NCBI RefSeq assembly: GCF_900215325.1
Contig: NZ_OCMS01000001.1
Location: forward strand, 248,001-312,000
Source: Fibrobacter sp. UWB16
GTDB taxonomy: Bacteria; Fibrobacterota; Fibrobacteria; Fibrobacterales; Fibrobacteraceae
Direction: 5' to 3'
Length of the DNA: 64,000 nucleotides
The position numbers and the translations under genes were made by a program. Numbering within the stretch: position 1 is the first letter of the stretch; each line of letters begins with the position of its first letter. Positions 3,075 through 16,868 of this stretch are shown here, piece by piece. A model generated the notes under the pieces. That model saw only the letters and a list, made by a program, of their open reading frames with translations. It searched no databases and was not told the DNA's origin.

Positions 3075-4826
3075 TCATCTCCCCATCGCCTTCTTTAGAA
3101 AATTTATTCCCTTCTGCCCAAGCATATTCTTCGCAAGGTTCTTTACCTCATTTTTCATGACCATCTTGGAATCAACCATATAATTCATCACTGTTTCCAA
3201 AGCATCACTTTCATCTTGCGTGTCAGTGAATGCCTCCAGAATCATCGGCTTATCCGTAATCTCTGGCGTCAAAAAGCGATCAACAACTTTTAAGAATTCT
3301 TCTTTATTTGACGCTGACAAATACTCGTATCCAAGATCAGTAGCATAATGTTTTAACAAATCAAAAGATTTGTTTCCGAAGTGTCCTGCGGCTGCCATAT
3401 ACGGGTCGGCTTCTTCACCAAAAATATAGCAAGGATGGTCATAATTACGGAATTCAGTACCGCGACCATTATTAACAACCATCAAACGGACATTCTTACC
3501 GATATGCCTATTTGCGGCAACATTCATATCATAGAAGAAAGCCAACTCCCCAAAAACACCAACAAACAATTTGTTGGGATTGGCAAGCGACGCTCCCATC
3601 ATCGAAGAAACGCCTCCATCAATACCAAAACCGCCCACATTGCATTTTGAATAGATTCCTTCGGGCAACGGGAAAAAATTCCATGAACGCAGACTATTAA
3701 AAATGCCCATGTGCAATTCGCAGCCTATAGGCAATTTGGGAGCCATCTGTTTTGCCATCCAAATGTTTCCAAATGGAATTTCGGGCATTTGATCAAGAAT
3801 CTTTTGATACTCTTCTTGACACGCTTTCAAGTAACGCGTTTCAGAAGCTTCGTCTTTGCTATAATATTCAAAGAACTCTTTTTCAGACATTTGGAATACA
3901 TTTGTCAATTTTCCAAATGTATCACGAAGTGCGCCATCTTCACTTACACGCCATACGGATTTTGTAGGGTTAATTCTATAACAACCGCTTACTTCACCAA
4001 TATGGATAAGCAAATCAACATTGGCTAAAGGTGACCGATAATTCTTTTGGCAGCATACCAAAGGAAAATTGACTTCATACTTTCCGCGATATCCGCTAGT
4101 ATGGTCGGTAAACACAACTGCGTCATGAGTTGCGCAGAACTTATCTATAGCAGCATTCTCTTCTGCCGTGAAATTATGATGAGAACCAACAAAAATAGCA
4201 ATCCGTTCAAATCCAGAAATTTCAGGCAGCACATCTTTCTTCGTGAACCGTCTAATAACCCTTACCGGCGGCAATTCCTTTACAGAAAAATCTGGGTTAT
4301 ACGCTGTAAACAAGTTTATATGTGCAGGACCACCACCATTTTGCTTCAACGCCAATATGGCTTTACTCGCTTCAACAACACAGAACTTTTCATCGGTCGA
4401 GTCCTTGACCAAAGGCACCGTTACACTATCCATAGCAATGTCATTAGGAATTTGCCTACGATCAATCTGCTGATCAATTAAGTGACCTATCGCCTGTGTT
4501 CCACGATGAGATGTTATCGCCAAAACAGGCAATTTTCTGTAATAAGCCTCTGTCAATCCGGACATGTAGTTTCTTGATGCAGTCGCGCCGGTGCAACTAA
4601 TTACAACGGGTTCTCTACTTTCTTCAGCCATTCCACACGCCAAATAAGCAGCCGATCGTTCATCTACCGACGAATATATTTCAAAAAAAGGGTCATTCTG
4701 GATACTCCCAACAAATGTCATATTTGTTGTTCCCGGAGAAGCAATCACCTTGCGGATACCATGAGCCTTAAGCAAGGAAATTACAATCTGAACATTTCTT
4801 TCAACGGTATAATACTTCTGTTCCAT
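3075..4826 (-). CDS. MenD-like thiamine-diphosphate-dependent enzyme
   Basis: 583 aa with the full three-domain ThDP layout. An N-terminal Pyr domain carries ASPGTTN and SSVDERSAAYLACGMA, with the catalytic Glu in DERSAAY. A middle domain follows. The C-terminal PP domain carries FGELAFFYDMN...VVNNGRG, the MenD-type replacement of the usual GDG...NN cofactor motif. MenD itself is a menaquinone enzyme, but this gene is last in a glycan operon, 9 nt behind an SDR gene. It more likely decarboxylates a 2-oxoacid and/or joins the product to another molecule for glycan decoration. It could instead be a plain decarboxylase. Family assignment is firm; substrate is unknown. Confidence 0.75.
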   Translation of the reverse strand: MEQKYYTVERNVQIVISLLKAHGIRKVIASPGTTNMTFVGSIQNDPFFEIYSSVDERSAAYLACGMAEESREPVVISCTGATASRNYMSGLTEAYYRKLPVLAITSHRGTQAIGHLIDQQIDRRQIPNDIAMDSVTVPLVKDSTDEKFCVVEASKAILALKQNGGGPAHINLFTAYNPDFSVKELPPVRVIRRFTKKDVLPEISGFERIAIFVGSHHNFTAEENAAIDKFCATHDAVVFTDHTSGYRGKYEVNFPLVCCQKNYRSPLANVDLLIHIGEVSGCYRINPTKSVWRVSEDGALRDTFGKLTNVFQMSEKEFFEYYSKDEASETRYLKACQEEYQKILDQMPEIPFGNIWMAKQMAPKLPIGCELHMGIFNSLRSWNFFPLPEGIYSKCNVGGFGIDGGVSSMMGASLANPNKLFVGVFGELAFFYDMNVAANRHIGKNVRLMVVNNGRGTEFRNYDHPCYIFGEEADPYMAAAGHFGNKSFDLLKHYATDLGYEYLSASNKEEFLKVVDRFLTPEITDKPMILEAFTDTQDESDALETVMNYMVDSKMVMKNEVKNLAKNMLGQKGINFLKKAMGR

Positions 4827-4835
4827 AAGACCTCT

Positions 4836-5669
4836 TTATTTCCAGCGTGCATTAACAGTTTTTGCATTATTGCAAGTTATAATTTGTCCTGAGACACACC
4901 CTGCAGCATCAGAAAGCAAAAAACAAGCCGTTTCAGCGACTTCCTCAGGAAGATAAACCCGTTCTATAGAACTTCCTGGCTCGTATAAGTTGCCATCGGC
5001 CTTAAATCCAGTCATATCCGAAGTGGTCACACCAGGGGCAACAGCATTCACCCGAATTCCGTCCTTAGAAAAAAGATAAGCAAGACCTTGAACCATACTA
5101 TTTACAGCGGCCTTTGTAAATCCATATGGTCTAAAATCCATTGTGTCGCCAGTTTCAGACGATGTAAAAAGAACGGTTCCTGTTCGTTGTTCTTTTTTTA
5201 GAATTTCAACGAATTTTTGAGTCAGAAAAAAGCCACCCTTTAAATTTGTATTGACTTGCTTATCAAATGTTTCTGAAGTTACATCAAAAAAAGTGCTTTC
5301 GTGTAACGATATCCCCGCATTGTTTACGATACAATTTACACCACCAAGCATTTGATTTGCTTGATTCATAAAAAACTCAAACGTATTTGGATTAGAAACA
5401 TCAAGGGGTAAATATTGGCAGCCGATTTCATCCGCTGATTTTTTTAAGGTATCTTCGTTGCGGCCAGCTATCAAAACAGAAGCCCCTTCCGCAACAAACT
5501 TTTTTGCCATAGCAAACCCAAGACCTCTGCCACCACCTGTAACGATGATTTTCTTTCCTATTAAGCGATTATTTGGCGATAAATAGGAAATGGAGGCTGT
5601 AAAATTCTTTTCAGGTACACCTCTAACAATCCAACGAATTCCACGCAGAATATATTGTTTCAACGACAT
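4836..5669 (-). CDS. Short-chain dehydrogenase/reductase (SDR)
   Basis: 277-aa classical SDR: TGGGRGLG (residues 44-51) binds the nicotinamide cofactor, NNAG lies at 116-119, Ser 170/171, and Tyr182-x3-Lys186 (YGFTK) form the active site. RVNAVAPG follows, as usual. A ~38-residue basic/hydrophobic N-terminal extension (ILRGIRWIVRG) precedes the Rossmann fold and could bind the membrane surface. It lies 1 nt after the PP-loop gene and 9 nt before the ThDP gene, so the three are probably translated together. Expected role: redox step on a sugar or an attached acyl/oxo group. Confidence 0.85.
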   Translation of the reverse strand: MSLKQYILRGIRWIVRGVPEKNFTASISYLSPNNRLIGKKIIVTGGGRGLGFAMAKKFVAEGASVLIAGRNEDTLKKSADEIGCQYLPLDVSNPNTFEFFMNQANQMLGGVNCIVNNAGISLHESTFFDVTSETFDKQVNTNLKGGFFLTQKFVEILKKEQRTGTVLFTSSETGDTMDFRPYGFTKAAVNSMVQGLAYLFSKDGIRVNAVAPGVTTSDMTGFKADGNLYEPGSSIERVYLPEEVAETACFLLSDAAGCVSGQIITCNNAKTVNARWK

Positions 5670-5670
5670 T

Positions 5671-6870
5671 TTACACGCCTATTTTTTTCAAGATTTTTCT
5701 AATCAACCCTTTTACATGTGATGGAATTAATCTCACATGAGCTTCTATCAAAGATGGCATCCTAATTCCATGAAGTTTCGCAAAATCATAATTATCCCTG
5801 TTATAAATAGATTTATTTCTGTTCGCACTTAAAAAACATTTATACCAATATGCCTTTTTCTTATACAACTCAATGTCGAAAACTTTTCGAAATAGCTCTA
5901 ATTTTCCCAAAGATTCCAAAGCAACAAGTGTGCGCAAACATTTTCCACAAACACCACAATTTTTTGCAGTTTCTTGATTATTCCAGTGGTCAACACAAAC
6001 ATTTAAGAAATCCCTTACAGGTGGATAGTCCGCAATTAATTCTGTTTTTTCTGTTCTTGTGTACTGAGCGCCATCTGTGATTATATCTAGAGACTCTGTG
6101 CTCAACATTGGATTCATAAAAGTTTCTGTTATTCCTGAAAGACTAGAAACATATGGATTAAATGCATTGTACATTATCTCTTTATATGAATAATCGCTAG
6201 ATAAATAATATTTGCTTATTTTTCTTTGAAAAACCAATATAGCAGAGGCTCGACAAAATAGACCTGCATCGTATTCCCAATAGTCCAAATAAAAGTCAAA
6301 CAGATTCGAGTCAAGCGGTATATAAGGTAGTCCAACTTGCTTTGGGAAATCCTTCAAAAGGTTATAACGCTCAATATATTTTTTTCTTGCCTTTTCACCG
6401 CCACCACCATGGCTACCAACGTTAAAGAAAAACAATGCCGAAATCTTAAAATCAGGATTTTTCTCTTTTACAAAATGATCTACAAATGTAGTGAACGAAT
6501 CTACTCCTGCAGAAAAACCTGTCCCCACACCATCTTCTACTTTTTGGGGAGAGCCAAATCCATTTGCCGTTACAGATACATAATGCATTTTTTGGCGATA
6601 TGATTTTACAACATTTTGTATGTAATATGTAACATTGAAGAAAAGACGAGGAGACACATTTCCGTCTATTTCAACAGGCTCATTATAATACATTGCAGGA
6701 TATATTGCAGCCACAAGGAACGCATCATATACATCGTCCGTCAAGAACGATTCAAATTCCTGTGGTACAGAAAACCACAACTTATTTTTTTGAGTATATT
6801 CCGCTTTTACATCTACGGTTAAATATGCAAAGCCATCTTTATATTCTTTTTGAATATTTGAAATTCTCAT
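5671..6870 (-). CDS. PP-loop ATP pyrophosphatase-like protein with CxxCxxC cluster
   Basis: 399 aa. Residues 120-125 read SAGVDS, a PP-loop (SGGxDS-like) typical of enzymes that adenylate a substrate using ATP. At roughly 304-311 CGVCGKC gives a CxxCxxC set, as in QueC-type zinc-binding PP-loop proteins. It is longer than QueC and not a good match to tRNA thiolases. Sitting between the flippase gene and an SDR, it probably activates a carboxyl or carbonyl group on a glycan precursor for amide, nitrile or thio-group formation. That is inference; I cannot name the reaction. Confidence 0.6.
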   Translation of the reverse strand: MRISNIQKEYKDGFAYLTVDVKAEYTQKNKLWFSVPQEFESFLTDDVYDAFLVAAIYPAMYYNEPVEIDGNVSPRLFFNVTYYIQNVVKSYRQKMHYVSVTANGFGSPQKVEDGVGTGFSAGVDSFTTFVDHFVKEKNPDFKISALFFFNVGSHGGGGEKARKKYIERYNLLKDFPKQVGLPYIPLDSNLFDFYLDYWEYDAGLFCRASAILVFQRKISKYYLSSDYSYKEIMYNAFNPYVSSLSGITETFMNPMLSTESLDIITDGAQYTRTEKTELIADYPPVRDFLNVCVDHWNNQETAKNCGVCGKCLRTLVALESLGKLELFRKVFDIELYKKKAYWYKCFLSANRNKSIYNRDNYDFAKLHGIRMPSLIEAHVRLIPSHVKGLIRKILKKIGV

Positions 6871-6873
6871 ATA

Positions 6874-8400
6874 CTACACCTTTTTCAATTTCTTTTTAAC
6901 TAACGAAATACAAAACACTCGTTCATTTTTATTTAGGCCAATAAAATAAGACAGAAGCAAAACTAACAGCACTTGGCACAATGTTTCAATTGTGAACACC
7001 ATAAAAGACGTGATTGGAATCCAAAGCAGATGACTTGTAAAATAAGAAATCACCACTATTAACGAACAGGGAATATAAATTTGTCCTATAATTTTAAAGA
7101 AAGATTTCGGAAACACTCGTTGAACAAAAATGATTCTAATAGCAGCAATGCACAACTGCAATATAACCCCTATTAAAAAGGCAATTTTAGGTTCGCAACC
7201 ATTGCAACACGCAATGTATGCAAAAGGGATGTTTAAAAGACCTACAACACCTATAAGGAATTGATACAAAGCAATTTTGCCAGTTGCTTGATTGACTACT
7301 GCAAATGGTAACGAAGATGTCTCAACAAGATTTTCAATCAGCAATAACTGACATATAACAACAGCGTATTGCGGAACATCTACAAGCCATAAATCCAAAA
7401 GATAATCCAAACTAAAGCAAGCCGGTAATGTGATTACATACATTAAAAAGAAATTTATTTTTGCGGTTTTAAACACTAAATCAAGAGTCCTGTCATAATC
7501 TTTTGCAGCATAAGACTTTATAATTTGAGGCTTTGTTGCCATACTGAAATTTTGAGAAAAGCTAGCGCTGATACTTCTTATTTGTGTTCCTATCTGTTGA
7601 GCCGCATTAACAATAGGTCCAAAGAATGTATTTAGCATAATAGATAGCCCTTGATTTTTCATCATCCAAGCAAAGCTTCCAAAACAATTCCATCCATTAA
7701 ACGACAAAAGTTCCTTTATTAAATCTTTTCTCCATAAAAAAGACGACCTGCATTCATCATATTTTTTGAATGTATACATTTGATAAAATAGCATCATCCC
7801 TAGATTGATTAACATATACAAAAATCCGTATGTAATCAGTTTGTCAGCTGGAGAAATGTACAACAAAAAAACAATGAGTAATTTTAGGACAACTTCAATA
7901 ATTCCAACTTGTGCAAAAACTTTCATATTTTCATGAGCTATAACAGAAGCCATATATGGAGCCGTCATTAAGCTCGCACAAGAACCCAAAATTGCCATTT
8001 GAAATATACATTGCGCAGCAAACATTCTATCAGGGGGAATAACCAGTTTGTTGTTCAACAACCAAAGACCGACAATTTCTTGTAAGACAAAAATTATCAA
8101 TGTGAAAATCACATAAATAGAAAATGTTCCCTTAAACGAATCACTTAACTTATCTTTTTCTCCAGAACCAATATAGAATGAAAAAAAACGTTGCGAACCG
8201 CTCGCCAATGAGCCGGAAAGAAACGCAAACATGGATACTGTACCTGCAACTACATTATTTACACCATAGTCTACAATTCCTAAAATGCTTAATGTAATAC
8301 GCACCGTCAACAAACCAACCGCCATAATAATTATTTGGCGGCAATACAAAAATAGAGCATTTTTTGTTATTTGCGATGCGGATGTCTTATATTCTGGCAT
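6874..8400 (-). CDS. Wzx-like polysaccharide flippase
   Basis: 508-aa polytopic membrane protein with about 12-14 hydrophobic segments. The start (NALFLYCRQIIIMAVGLLTV) and the following LGIVDYGVNNVVAG are typical of the MOP/PST exporter superfamily (Wzx). It would carry undecaprenyl-linked repeat units across the inner membrane. The partners are in the same operon: a PglC-like initiating transferase at 16865 and a Wzy-like polymerase at 12292. Gaps to its neighbours are 3 nt on both sides. Confidence 0.85.
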   Translation of the reverse strand: MPEYKTSASQITKNALFLYCRQIIIMAVGLLTVRITLSILGIVDYGVNNVVAGTVSMFAFLSGSLASGSQRFFSFYIGSGEKDKLSDSFKGTFSIYVIFTLIIFVLQEIVGLWLLNNKLVIPPDRMFAAQCIFQMAILGSCASLMTAPYMASVIAHENMKVFAQVGIIEVVLKLLIVFLLYISPADKLITYGFLYMLINLGMMLFYQMYTFKKYDECRSSFLWRKDLIKELLSFNGWNCFGSFAWMMKNQGLSIMLNTFFGPIVNAAQQIGTQIRSISASFSQNFSMATKPQIIKSYAAKDYDRTLDLVFKTAKINFFLMYVITLPACFSLDYLLDLWLVDVPQYAVVICQLLLIENLVETSSLPFAVVNQATGKIALYQFLIGVVGLLNIPFAYIACCNGCEPKIAFLIGVILQLCIAAIRIIFVQRVFPKSFFKIIGQIYIPCSLIVVISYFTSHLLWIPITSFMVFTIETLCQVLLVLLLSYFIGLNKNERVFCISLVKKKLKKV

Positions 8401-8403
8401 AAT

Positions 8404-9414
8404 TTATTTTTCCAAAGCGGATTTAAGCCAGTTCAACGAAAATTCACGCATTTCGTCTAGCTTGCCGGACTCGTATAATTTGAGCAGCGAATCAAATCGT
8501 GCGGAACCACGGTCCTTATTATATATGCACTTGAATTCTTTCCCAAAGATTATCGAGAAAACCGTTCCATGGAAGGAATCCGTGACTACATAAGATGCGT
8601 CACGGAACATGGCTAACCATTCGGGAACAGTCAGAGTCGATTTTGAATCTGCATGGAATTTTTTTACAACCAATCCGCGTGAAGCAGCCTCTTTTTCATA
8701 AGTTGCCGAAATCTCTTTATTTTCATCCAGCACATAAACCGCAAGATATTTATCGGCGCAAACAGGAATCTCTTCGCAAATCGGTAGATAATCGTCTTTC
8801 GATAGCAACAGTGTCGGGTCTAAAACCCATGCTGCATCCACGCCAAGTTTTTCTTTGCACAACATCACGCCAGATTCTTCGCGAACACTGATTGCATGAA
8901 ATTTTTTAGCGAGACCTGCACAAATTTTGGTTTGTCTAGGTGTATATTCCCATTCATCAACCCCAAACGATGCCGCATAAGCGATGCGCTTAATTGACTT
9001 TTTTTCAGCAAACTTGAGAAACATGTCTTCAATTCGATAATTATACTTTGGACGCCAAACTTGGTCACTTCCAACAATAATTGCATAGGATTCATCCAAC
9101 ATACTTTCGTTGTACTTGAAGCATTTTGCTGTCAACTTTAGCCATTTGCAAGCAAAATCATTTGCCCAACAAGAACGAAAACCTTTACATGAAAATCTAA
9201 GAAATTTCCGACGTTTACTAGGAATAAATAGCAAAAATAAGGATTTCAGGCTATATTTAAAAAAAGAGAAAAAAGAAATGCGAGGCACCATAAGAAAATC
9301 AATCGTTTGACAAGTATATCCATTTTTTTTTATAAAATTATGCAACGCAAAATTCTGAAGCAAACCACCATAATTACTCTGTAATGGGAGTGTAACAATC
9401 ACCACTTTTTTCAT
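8404..9414 (-). CDS. Polysaccharide pyruvyl transferase family protein
   Basis: 336 aa with the family's markers in order: NYGGLLQ (residues 14-20), VGSDQVWRP near 116, and TDSFHGTVFSIIFGKEF near the C-terminus. The family (PF04230; CsaB, WcaK, PssM) transfers pyruvate from PEP to sugar hydroxyls as a ketal, adding negative charge to surface glycans. Located 1 nt after a GT2 gene and 3 nt before the flippase, consistent with decoration of the repeat unit before export. Confidence 0.85.
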   Translation of the reverse strand: MKKVVIVTLPLQSNYGGLLQNFALHNFIKKNGYTCQTIDFLMVPRISFFSFFKYSLKSLFLLFIPSKRRKFLRFSCKGFRSCWANDFACKWLKLTAKCFKYNESMLDESYAIIVGSDQVWRPKYNYRIEDMFLKFAEKKSIKRIAYAASFGVDEWEYTPRQTKICAGLAKKFHAISVREESGVMLCKEKLGVDAAWVLDPTLLLSKDDYLPICEEIPVCADKYLAVYVLDENKEISATYEKEAASRGLVVKKFHADSKSTLTVPEWLAMFRDASYVVTDSFHGTVFSIIFGKEFKCIYNKDRGSARFDSLLKLYESGKLDEMREFSLNWLKSALEK

Positions 9415-9415
9415 T

Positions 9416-10381
9416 TTACTGATTCCACATAGTTGTTATACACACCTTCGCTTTAAATAGTCTTCTGGCAAAAGGCAAAGAAAAGAACAAAGCAATAGTG
9501 ATAAAAAATTCCCAATGACCCAAAGTATGCAAATTGAAATTGAATAATTTATTCACTTCAGGGTAAAGGCCCTTAAAATCACTATCGGTAAATTCGCAAA
9601 TTAAAAAAGCGGTCCATTTGGAACTCTTTTTTAATTCAGCAACTCCATTTTCGACAAAAGGATCTTTTTTTTGTTCAAGCCAAGAGATAATGTTTTTTAA
9701 AGAATTTAATCTCTTCATAGAATGCTGTTGAATTAAACTATTGTGATTTACATTTTGATAATAATGATAAAAAGCTTTTGGTAAATAGGAAATTTTTACA
9801 GGTTTTTCAGCTAATTTTAAATTGACAAAAAGGTCTTCGCAATAATTCATATTCAAATCGAATTTTATACCATATTTTCGAAAGCATTCTGTGCGAACTA
9901 ATTTATTCCAACAGGCCCCATGCAACTTTTCATTTACTAAATCATAAAAATAGGCATCATGATTTAATTTTGTTGGTTCTTGCTTGTAATATTTTCGCTG
10001 TTTCCCACTTTCTAAATAGTAGTCACAAATCACAACATCAGCATCATCAATCAAAGCTTTTTTCAAAAGTTCTTCAAGCATCGTTGAATCAACCCAGTCG
10101 TCAGGATCAACGTGAATAAAGAAATCACCCTTGGCATTATCAAATCCAACTTGTCTTGCTGTTGCTACGCCACCATTTCCTTTATGGATTGTTTTAAAAC
10201 GACAATCATGTGCGGCATATTCATCACAAATAGCTCCAGACTGATCAAAAGAGCCATCATCGACCAAAAGAACTTCAAAATTTTTTAAAGTCTGTCGCTG
10301 TAAGCAATCTAAGCAACGCCGAATGAAATTTTCAGCTTGATACACAGCGACAATGACACTTATGTTAGGATGATTCATCAT
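9416..10381 (-). CDS. Family 2 glycosyltransferase
   Basis: 321-aa GT-A fold enzyme: ISVIVAVYQAENFIRRCLDC, VDDGSFDQSG and HVDPDDW (the DxD metal site) in the first 110 residues. A predicted hydrophobic stretch near the C-terminus (FFITIALFFSLPFARRLF) may hold it at the membrane. An upstream TTG in frame is possible, but the tandem ATGs at 10381/10378 give the normal family start; neither has a clear ribosome site. Adds one sugar to the lipid-linked unit; donor unknown. Confidence 0.85.
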   Translation of the reverse strand: MMNHPNISVIVAVYQAENFIRRCLDCLQRQTLKNFEVLLVDDGSFDQSGAICDEYAAHDCRFKTIHKGNGGVATARQVGFDNAKGDFFIHVDPDDWVDSTMLEELLKKALIDDADVVICDYYLESGKQRKYYKQEPTKLNHDAYFYDLVNEKLHGACWNKLVRTECFRKYGIKFDLNMNYCEDLFVNLKLAEKPVKISYLPKAFYHYYQNVNHNSLIQQHSMKRLNSLKNIISWLEQKKDPFVENGVAELKKSSKWTAFLICEFTDSDFKGLYPEVNKLFNFNLHTLGHWEFFITIALFFSLPFARRLFKAKVCITTMWNQ

Positions 10382-10414
10382 TAAACAAAAAAATAACAAT
10401 ATGGATTTAAAAAT

Positions 10415-14733: not shown

Positions 14734-15690
14734 TTATCTCTTTATTGCAATTTCGTTGTACTTCATCATATAGACACCGTCTTCGTAGTTGCCTATATTC
14801 TCTTTATTCTCAATACCCTTGAGGTTGTTTTCAATCAGAGCCATATGATTACATCCACACTCAAATGCATGGGGATAGCCGCCACCAAAACGGGGGTTTA
14901 CCTCAGAGATGTAGTATTTACCATCAATATCGAAAATGTCAATGTCAATTTGACCTGTGAAGCCGCTTTCTTCCGCAAATTTTTTTACCAAGGCGAATAA
15001 TTCGGGATCTTTAAAAGAGACTGCCTTGTCTGTTTCTCCGGCGCGCATCACAATCTTTTTCTTTGTGAAAATCGATACAACTTTCTTGCTGATCATGTCA
15101 ATGTACACATCTGCGCCAATTTCCTGACCATGCAAAAATTCCTGAATCATCATTCCTTCGGAATGAGTGCATAGCAAATCAACTGTTTCCTTATCGCACG
15201 CTTTAGAAATCGCTATACTTGCACTTCCGCAGGCGGGTTTTACGAAAACCGGATACTTAATTTCGCCCTTTGTCAAGTCAGCATAAAAAGCTTCACGATC
15301 CATATAGGATTTTGCGCAGTTATAGCCATGTTCCTTCAACCAATTATACATCTTGAATTTATCAAGGCTACGTTCGCAGAGTTCAAAATTAGAACCAATG
15401 ATTTTAACTCCGGCATCGTCAAAAAGCTTATGATTTTTAGCAAGAAGGTTTAATTCAGGGTCAATCAGAGAAAGAACGCCCTCAATCTTTTCCTTCTTAC
15501 AAATATCAAGAATAACATCAAGATATCCGTCAGCTGTAATGCGAGGAACAATATAATACTTATCAGCCTCATAAAGTGCAGGTGCAATTTCACTGCAATC
15601 GGTAGCGACAATCTTGCCATCCTTAAAGGTTTTCTTGAAATACTGGATAACCTTATTGCGGGTGCCAGCAGAAAGAATTAACATATTCAT
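14734..15690 (-). CDS. ATP-grasp ligase (carbamoyl-phosphate-synthase-like)
   Basis: 318 aa. N-terminal Rossmann-like preATP-grasp domain (MLILSAGTRNKVIQYFKK), then FVKPACGSASIAI (ATP-binding Lys and loop), GQEIGADVYID, and the metal-binding end DIDIFDIDGKYYISEVNPRFGGGYP with Glu and Asn. Such enzymes form an amide or peptide bond through an acyl-phosphate. Its start codon overlaps the stop of the PLP decarboxylase gene (TAATG). I infer that the amine made by the decarboxylase is ligated by this enzyme to a sugar acid or amino acid of the glycan. Confidence 0.8.
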   Translation of the reverse strand: MNMLILSAGTRNKVIQYFKKTFKDGKIVATDCSEIAPALYEADKYYIVPRITADGYLDVILDICKKEKIEGVLSLIDPELNLLAKNHKLFDDAGVKIIGSNFELCERSLDKFKMYNWLKEHGYNCAKSYMDREAFYADLTKGEIKYPVFVKPACGSASIAISKACDKETVDLLCTHSEGMMIQEFLHGQEIGADVYIDMISKKVVSIFTKKKIVMRAGETDKAVSFKDPELFALVKKFAEESGFTGQIDIDIFDIDGKYYISEVNPRFGGGYPHAFECGCNHMALIENNLKGIENKENIGNYEDGVYMMKYNEIAIKR

Positions 15691-16868
15691 TATTTTTCGT
15701 CTCCAATGGTACGGCTTTTATATTCGATATCGGTCCATTTATCACGAACTTTTGAAATTTTGGGGCCGTCTTTTACATAAACGGAAGGGAACCATTTTAT
15801 AAAAAGAGGAGAAAGACACATTGTATAGGCGCCGACTTTGTGGTAAATAATCTGATCATTAGGGAGAAGCTCTTGCTCATTCTTCACCTCAAACATACGA
15901 TCATGTTCCATGCAAGTAAAGCCACAAATAATCTGTCGATTAAGTTCAGTTCTTTTTTCATTCCCATTGCGAACAATGTCTTTGAAGTATGAACTCTTGG
16001 TCATCAAGGGATCTATTTGCGTGCGGCTTCCATCGGTCACAACAAACATGTTTCTGATCGTTTTTTTTACATCCTTGACAGTTGTATAGTAATCAACGGC
16101 AGCTCCGATCAGAGCCATTCCTGGTTCAACAACCAAAACAGTTTTCTTTGGATTGAAGTTGCGCCTTAATATTGCAGAAACCGTGCTGAAATATTCTATG
16201 AACTGAGGCTTTGATGCTAAACCACCAAAAAAACCTCCGCCAATATCCACATAATCCAAATTCAATTCGTATTTATCGGTAATTTCAACAGCTGCATCCG
16301 CAATGGCTTTATAAATGTCGGGTAACCGAGTCTTGGAACTTTTGTGGAGATGCAATCCCGAGATTTTGATGCCTTTAGCCTGGATTTTGTCAATAGCACG
16401 TTTCAGTTCACCATTTTCGTAGCAAAAACCAAAACGTTCACCATCTTCGCCACATTGAGTTTGCCCCGGGCACTTGGATTCTAAATCAAAGTTGACACGA
16501 ATTCCTACCGAATAACGACCTTTTTCCAATTCGTCAAGCCAATCAATTTCGTATTCAGAATCAATGTTTACAATGGAGTTGTTTTTAACAGCTTCAATAA
16601 AAGTTTCTTTTGACTTTGCTATACCGTTGTAAATGATTTTATTGGCCCCAATTGACTTAGCCAAATTATATTCATCATCAGAAACAACCTCTGCGTAACA
16701 ACCATTTTTTTTGAAATAGTTGATTACCCAAGGAAATGCATTCGTTTTGTAGGAATAGCCGATGATGTAGTTTCCCCAAGACGATTGAAGCGCATTTTTC
16801 AGCTTCAGCAATTCGTCATCGAGAAAATCTTTGTTGATCAAGAAATAGGGCGTTTGCAAACAATTCAT
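15690..16868 (-). CDS. PLP-dependent fold-type III decarboxylase (LysA/ornithine-decarboxylase-like)
   Basis: 392 aa. GYSYKTN places the PLP lysine at residue 41. LHLHKSSKT and DIGGGFFGG (phosphate-binding glycines) follow, and the C-terminal barrel has CMEHDRMFEVK, resembling the substrate Cys/Asp region of this group. Family members decarboxylate diaminopimelate, ornithine, arginine or carboxyspermidine. As it is locked by a 4-nt ATGA overlap to the PglC-like gene and by 1 nt to an ATP-grasp ligase, I infer a glycan-specific amine supply, not lysine synthesis. Confidence 0.8.
   Translation of the reverse strand: MNCLQTPYFLINKDFLDDELLKLKNALQSSWGNYIIGYSYKTNAFPWVINYFKKNGCYAEVVSDDEYNLAKSIGANKIIYNGIAKSKETFIEAVKNNSIVNIDSEYEIDWLDELEKGRYSVGIRVNFDLESKCPGQTQCGEDGERFGFCYENGELKRAIDKIQAKGIKISGLHLHKSSKTRLPDIYKAIADAAVEITDKYELNLDYVDIGGGFFGGLASKPQFIEYFSTVSAILRRNFNPKKTVLVVEPGMALIGAAVDYYTTVKDVKKTIRNMFVVTDGSRTQIDPLMTKSSYFKDIVRNGNEKRTELNRQIICGFTCMEHDRMFEVKNEQELLPNDQIIYHKVGAYTMCLSPLFIKWFPSVYVKDGPKISKVRDKWTDIEYKSRTIGDEK

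Follow-up and report, generated by a model that had tools for sequence, protein, structure and literature searches.

The window analyzed here is the whole of a 64,000-nucleotide stretch of Fibrobacter sp. UWB16 (contig NZ_OCMS01000001.1, positions 248,001 to 312,000), and our subject is a group of three genes on its minus strand, which encode a PP-loop protein, a short-chain dehydrogenase/reductase (SDR) and a thiamine diphosphate (ThDP) enzyme that resembles MenD. According to the open reading frame (ORF) list and Pfam, the trio forms the end of a 14-gene glycan operon that runs from 18753 to 3075. The operon begins with a DegT aminotransferase, a sugar-1-phosphate transferase, a pyridoxal phosphate (PLP)-dependent decarboxylase, an ATP-grasp protein, a family 2 glycosyltransferase (GT2) and a Wzy_C-type protein, and continues with a family 4 glycosyltransferase (GT4), a Gly_transf_sug protein, another GT2, a PF04230 gene, a MatE-like flippase and, finally, the PP-loop, SDR and ThDP genes. 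A reading made from the sequence alone had described three enzymes that close a glycan operon and are packed so tightly that only 1 and 9 nt separate them, and both coordinates and bases agree with it: a single nucleotide (5670) separates the PP-loop gene from the SDR gene, and nine (4827-4835) lie between the SDR and ThDP genes. The arrangement is more than a product of chance, since the identical gene order recurs in other genomes. The features referred to below are the following.

3075-4826, minus strand: MenD-like ThDP enzyme, 583 aa
4836-5669, minus strand: classical SDR, 277 aa
5671-6870, minus strand: PP-loop protein, 399 aa, with a predicted QatC/QueC-like fold
6874-8400, minus strand: flippase, weakly MatE-like, the usual upstream neighbour of the SDR-ThDP pair
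8404-9414, minus strand: gene of the PF04230 polysaccharide pyruvyltransferase family (Pfam)
9416-10399, minus strand: GT2 glycosyltransferase, 53% identical to the GT2 beside the second SDR-ThDP pair of the genome
10415-18753, minus strand: remaining operon genes, from Gly_transf_sug back to DegT, including an ATP-grasp protein with a PylC-like N-domain

To place the trio among its relatives, we scanned genome contigs for the ThDP enzyme and obtained 484 relatives, of which the best 80 were kept and read. These come from Bacteroidota, Clostridia, Opitutales, Akkermansia, Treponema, Selenomonas, Halovibrio, Gayadomonas, Nitrosomonas and others. Our counts are based on 86 loci, namely 78 with a full ThDP frame, seven from a search of the window's class and one R. 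albus plasmid locus; L061 and L064, for which the ORF caller gave no ThDP frame, were excluded. The ThDP gene directly adjoins an NAD(P) reductase in 68 of the 86 loci, where the direct neighbour is either a classical SDR located upstream (48 loci) or an extended SDR located upstream (16) or downstream (4). Since this adjacency is so frequent, sequence comparison identifies the SDR-ThDP pair as a conserved unit, whose two members are conserved neighbours in the glycan loci of several phyla. Over the same loci, the flippase cluster is present in 64 and the PF04230 cluster in 55, in 38 of them directly downstream. As the best 80 relatives had been picked for their likeness to the query, we added an even draw of 393 genomes from one order, where the ThDP enzyme occurs in six genomes and seven copies, two of them in the seed genome; each of the five other copies stands next to an SDR (3) or an extended SDR (2). 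Within the window's class, the enzyme is found in seven of 126 genomes, including that of the window, and the pair is adjacent in four of the other six, while L026 has an acyltransferase between the two genes and L028 an aldo/keto reductase in place of the SDR. The ThDP tree, a quick one without bootstrap and with long branches, shows no fewer than 10 switches of reductase type, and it therefore seems to be the redox partner as such that is kept. The SDR of the window matches PF13561/PF00106 and has both a TGGGRGLG motif and an S-x(n)-YGFTK motif, and 47 of the 54 SDRs checked have both motifs; its Rossmann fold is preceded by an N-terminal extension of some 30 aa, which is basic and amphipathic.

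Regarding the ThDP enzyme, the sequence-only reading had called it MenD-type, and this was borne out for the fold. Its predicted structure matches MenD best (Z 31.6, with MenD filling the top 21 rows), and MenD is also the best PDB match; we relied on rank and not on TM because the matches show a root-mean-square deviation (rmsd) of 17-18 Å, the cause of which we think to be shifts of whole domains within the single-chain model. Pfam reports PF02776 (7e-19), with PF02775 under its cut-off, and menD (TIGR00173) is the best NCBIfam match at 155.8 bits, against a cut-off of 244.2. YerE-type enzymes are acetohydroxyacid synthase (AHAS)-like, and the NCBIfam AHAS profiles match only the N-terminal part of the window protein, at about 42 bits or less. 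The fold list also contains JanthE (Z 24.9), ranked under MenD, and E. coli pyruvate oxidase (3eya), which also uses ThDP, is similar in fold and has an entry title that mentions membrane binding. No relative of the ThDP enzyme or of the PP-loop protein was found in the viral collections searched. The catalytic Glu is retained as E56, and N35, E56, R85, R380, H482 and K508 are invariant in the 43 family rows aligned. Most members have the signature SPG[TAG]TN, and N[VT]G replaces the NRG of MenD. PMC2914249 assigns Arg32 and Arg106 of Bacillus subtilis MenD to isochorismate, Arg428 to 2-oxoglutarate and Arg409 to both. The family conserves one of these four substrate arginines, that of Arg409 (R380 in the window, bases 3687-3689; R in 43/43). 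The position of Arg32 is taken by T34 (4725-4727; T in 42/43 and A in 1/43), and that of Arg428 by V397 (3636-3638; V in 34/43 and T in 9/43). The window family thus shares with MenD the three-domain ThDP fold, the catalytic Glu, the Arg409 equivalent and the best structural match, but it differs in these T/A and V/T positions and in its location, mostly beside a reductase and not beside menB, menC or menE.

The identity of the ThDP gene as the menD of a menaquinone-making genome would account for its best NCBIfam and PDB matches. The sequence-only reading had named such an identity as a finding that would overturn it; this finding did not come about, and we consider the identity extremely improbable. 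The window genome, listed as 100% complete, gave no match in a menB search that was positive in 11 of 14 control genomes, and it contains two matches to PF02621 (MqnA/MqnD-type), a family found in 4 of the 14 controls. Its two chorismate-binding proteins (PF00425) score best as TrpE and as PabB (aminodeoxychorismate synthase), and no dedicated isochorismate synthase was seen among the PF00425 proteins scored. Because menB is absent and PF02621 is matched twice, menaquinone, if made, would be made by the futalosine route, of which the MqnA/MqnD family was the part searched for. Genome content together with the loss of substrate arginines, three of the four not being conserved in the family, led us to discard a menaquinone role for this enzyme.

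The sequence-only reading had also pointed to SAGVDS and CxxCxxC in the PP-loop protein, and both are in place, the former at residues 120-125 (bases 6496-6513) and the latter at residues 305-311 (bases 5938-5958), as part of a four-Cys motif C292(x)12C305xxC308xxC311. A C(x)nCxxCxxC motif is present in all 11 PP-loop sequences, only one of which has the exact x8 spacing; ten have S[AGC]G[VI]D[SA] and two an exact SGGxDS. The predicted structure (pLDDT 89.3) was compared using VIA-align, which placed QatC first (Z 14.0, rmsd 4.8, 307 aligned, model residues 1-382), followed by QueC (Z 11.6, rmsd 3.5, 179 aligned) and Cap9 (Z 10.1, rmsd 3.3, 172 aligned), with all others at 9.4 or less; Foldseek gave weak matches to PP-loop ATPases, none at E ≤ 0.001. 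A comparison of the sequence with the PDB gave no match, PADLOC gave 0 matches for the window protein, and no Pfam family scored above its cut-off, PF06508 being absent at E ≤ 1 for the window protein and at 0.01 for L042. The motifs of QueC and QatC are named in PMC13329287, which treats the PF06508 family. The elements of the preQ0 signature (YxQxHxxE, VPxRN and YPDC) are each found in 0 of the 11 sequences, and of the six QatC Cluster-2 patterns tested from that source, five are found in none and RxRxxx[FY] in one. Since the protein has a QueC fold in its model but falls outside PF06508 by profile and lacks the QueC and QatC motifs, structure prediction makes it a QueC-fold protein of a separate line. 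With QueC it shares the PP-loop core, the zinc-type four-Cys motif and the logic of an ATP pyrophosphatase. With QatC, of the qatABCD defence system, it shares a near full-length match over about 400 aa, consisting of a QueC core with N- and C-terminal extensions, whereas the spacing of the Cys motif is different and the neighbours are flippase, SDR, ThDP and glycan genes, with no QatA, QatB or QatD. WbpG-type N-sugar amidotransferases are described in PMC13329287 as PP-loop enzymes of O-antigen loci that transfer nitrogen; however, neither NCBIfam nor Pfam gave a match to a WbpG-type family for the window protein.

As to its distribution, the PP-loop gene stands beside the pair in 10 of the 86 loci besides the window, so that the three genes are by no means always separate elsewhere; what did not stand of the earlier proposal is the trio as the unit, because the conserved unit is the pair and, judging from gene neighbourhoods, the PP-loop gene is an optional, recurring accessory to it. 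Three loci (L077, L081 and L084) repeat the four-gene row of flippase, PP-loop, SDR and ThDP seen in the window, while the closest relative, L026 (ThDP 84% and SDR 82% identical), has no PP-loop gene in a genome that is 71% complete. The gene is present in about six ThDP lineages, with at least nine changes on the ThDP tree, a distribution from which contig ends may hide a few occurrences. A single-protein search found it in one of the 126 genomes of the window's class, and a profile search over the 393 genomes drawn from one order gave three, of which one is the seed and the other two are remote. A search of 49 genomes chosen for their ThDP loci, with 50 of the 80 loci as input, showed the gene in 12, and in 10 of these it stands beside the pair. 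G157 carries it with flippase and SDR on a contig other than that of its ThDP gene, and G152 has a remote copy between ATP-grasp genes. Remote plasmid homologues in Gloeothece and Azospirillum lie directly downstream of a gene annotated as PF04230. At L164:5383-9101, a remote homologue is flanked by two ATP-grasp genes, and the window operon also has a PylC-like ATP-grasp gene. The order flippase, PP-loop, flippase, SDR is found at L065:1523-6833 and L069:2646-7963, where the frames of the first flippase and of the PP-loop protein overlap by 4 nt, as if flippase and PP-loop were a unit of their own.

Taken together, these data suggest that the ThDP enzyme and the SDR probably work as a single unit in the assembly of a glycan, placing an unusual chemical group on the polymer. 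For its activity, we propose, with a probability of about 0.5, that the pair attaches a 2-oxo acid, once decarboxylated, to a lipid-linked sugar and sets the redox state, and that the PP-loop protein, where present, amidates a carboxylate. By analogy with YerE, the ThDP enzyme would decarboxylate a 2-oxo acid and pass the acyl carbanion on to a sugar that offers a carbonyl or an unsaturated group as acceptor; the SDR would either make the keto acceptor or reduce the newly formed ketone. The optional PP-loop ATP pyrophosphatase would adenylate a carboxylate, perhaps one that stems from the 2-oxo acid, and lead to an amide, a step that may cap the new group. Amidation is our first guess for this protein because QueC, as stated in PMC13329287, adenylates a carboxylate and adds nitrogen. 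The "activate, reduce and extend" chemistry put forward by the sequence-only reading may be inferred from such a set of enzymes, with activation as the opening step being the less likely order, since the pair stands without the PP-loop gene in most loci; a PP-loop protein acting last or independently is likelier. We infer that the reaction would occur at the membrane, on a lipid-linked sugar, because the ends of the SDR and the PP-loop protein are basic and amphipathic, the ThDP tail is basic and a flippase is the usual neighbour. SDR N-termini have a median charge of +5 and 71% of them show a hydrophobic moment with z > 1 (n = 55), and PP-loop C-termini, which form a basic amphipathic helix in the window protein, reach +6 and 82% (n = 11), while the opposite ends of these proteins have charges of +1 and 0 and none is above z = 1. 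A known parallel is that of the YerE-type ThDP enzymes, which according to PMC12247030 act on an NDP-4-keto sugar, with ketoreduction afterwards, in the synthesis of yersiniose and other branched sugars. Both cases have a ThDP enzyme in surface-polysaccharide loci with a reductase as partner, but the genes for NDP-4-keto-sugar synthesis are mostly not near pairs of the window type, and the fold of the window protein is nearer to MenD. A literature search in full text, judged by title and abstract and with subscription papers and preprints mostly outside its coverage, returned no earlier description of the pair or the trio.

Several observations weigh against this proposal. Twelve of the 86 loci have neither reductase, when an SDR cluster is found in 53, an extended SDR cluster in 22 and both in one; three of these twelve, L056, L062 and L074, lack any gene upstream on their contigs. 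The window protein itself keeps an arginine, R108, at the MenD Arg106 position, although this position is mixed in the family, with R in only 10 of 43 rows. A Glu replaces the metal-binding Asp at residue 427 (3546-3548) in the window protein and its sister L026 only, GDL being present in 84 of 87 members, and because of this substitution we are less sure of the activity of the window enzyme than of that of its family. NDP-keto-sugar genes are scarce near the pair, with GDP_Man_Dehyd in only 5 of 122 scanned neighbours (out of 236 eligible, in a census of which 25 of 73 families are shown), whereas YerE uses an NDP-keto sugar. The flippase family is common without the ThDP enzyme, the former occurring in 51 and the latter in 7 of the 126 class genomes, and we consequently rejected it as a specific marker of the pair. 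Regarding the membrane, the C-terminal tails of the ThDP enzymes are basic (+6), yet no more than 21% of them count as amphipathic, and the test lacks specificity, since a basic charge (+5) is seen at GT2 C-termini as well and 59% of GT2 N-termini pass. Finally, the four-gene cassette of L081 is isolated, and the flanking genes scanned there include radical SAM, FGE-sulfatase and WG-repeat genes and GroEL but no glycosyltransferase, a poor fit to a purely glycan role.

Some of these observations can also be read in other ways. The ThDP enzyme could be a plain 2-oxo-acid decarboxylase, following the logic of phosphonopyruvate decarboxylase, with the SDR reducing (or oxidising) the resulting aldehyde and a later enzyme attaching the group. 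An SDR, an extended SDR or the aldo/keto reductase of L028 could all serve an aldehyde, and LicD and cytidylyltransferase-domain genes accompany the pair in the R. albus locus; however, the nearest fold is that of MenD, a C-C ligase, and not that of decarboxylases, no conserved downstream transferase for an alcohol was identified, and there is no phosphoenolpyruvate (PEP) mutase among the families shown in the census. We hold this explanation to be unlikely. A phosphonate pathway as such was rejected, given the absence of PEP mutase among the 25 families shown and the fusion of the R. albus cytidylyltransferase to a Gfo/Idh domain.

It seems still less likely that the product of the flippase, PP-loop, SDR and ThDP cassette is a small lipid or diffusible molecule for export, with the place of these genes in glycan operons being secondary. 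The isolated cassette of L081, the scanned flanks of L077 (a C10 peptidase, a phospholipase D (PLD)-family protein, GrpE and one gene of no known family) and the MatE score of the flippase are in line with such a product, but many loci have glycosyltransferases and PF04230 genes, the flippase family is widespread in the class, and the L081 copy also matches PF01943 (Polysacc_synt). An improbable alternative for the PP-loop protein is the modification of a protein, as is thought for QatC and Cap9, in place of a glycan carboxylate: its best match in structure is QatC, which aligns along almost the whole protein, and Cap9 comes after QueC, but QatA, QatB and QatD are not seen in the cassette, and of the published QatC motifs only a single short one is matched, in 1 of the 11 rows. 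The N-terminal Gly of the SDR was considered as a QatB-like target and rejected, as no N-terminal Gly motif is conserved in the SDRs of PP-loop loci.

Returning to the addition of a decarboxylated 2-oxo acid by the pair, its most far-reaching version, which we regard as doubtful, is a MenD-derived class of enzymes acting at the inner membrane, where C-C bonds would be made on sugars carried by a lipid and not by a nucleotide and a reductase with a tail would be the regular partner; in some lineages a QatC-like ATP ligase would amidate the new carboxylate before flipping, and the whole would be a portable glycan-branching module that spreads between phyla. If true, C-C branching on a lipid-linked sugar would be a route of glycan modification unlike that of YerE, and the QueC fold would gain a role beyond nucleosides and phage defence. 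Hundreds of menD-looking genes in gut and environmental genomes would belong to surface-glycan chemistry and not to vitamin K.

Another glycan locus of the window genome (C1:1206.7-1209.4 kb) contains a second SDR-ThDP pair, which follows a GT2, a PF04230 gene and a flippase that are 53%, 59% and 33% identical, respectively, to those of the window. The two pairs are themselves distant (ThDP 31% and SDR 24% identical), and since the GT2 and PF04230 genes are close while the ThDP and SDR genes are not, the two loci would have the same glycan setting and a different modifying chemistry. The second ThDP enzyme (L032:7580-9364, equivalent to G000:C1:1207579-1209363) keeps all four MenD arginines and may use 2-oxoglutarate as substrate. 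At 270 bits, it is over the menD cut-off of 244 and would be named menD by annotation rules even though the genome has no menB, a likely misannotation trap which shows that a protein over the NCBIfam cut-off can occupy a glycan locus in such a genome.

A few additional features were observed in the window and in related loci. The PLP decarboxylase and the PylC-like ATP-grasp gene form a pair within the glycan operon (14734-16868) that perhaps makes and attaches an amino acid or diamine on the glycan. A NusG/UpxY-like regulator upstream of the stand-alone cassette was a guess from the look of the sequence, had no Pfam match and is not claimed here. The fused gene of R. albus (L024:4334-5608), a cytidylyltransferase domain joined to Gfo/Idh/MocA, has three LicD genes and a class V aminotransferase nearby. 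Finally, a strong terminator-like hairpin of 12 pairs lies at 2586-2615 on the minus strand, about 460 nt past the ThDP stop codon.

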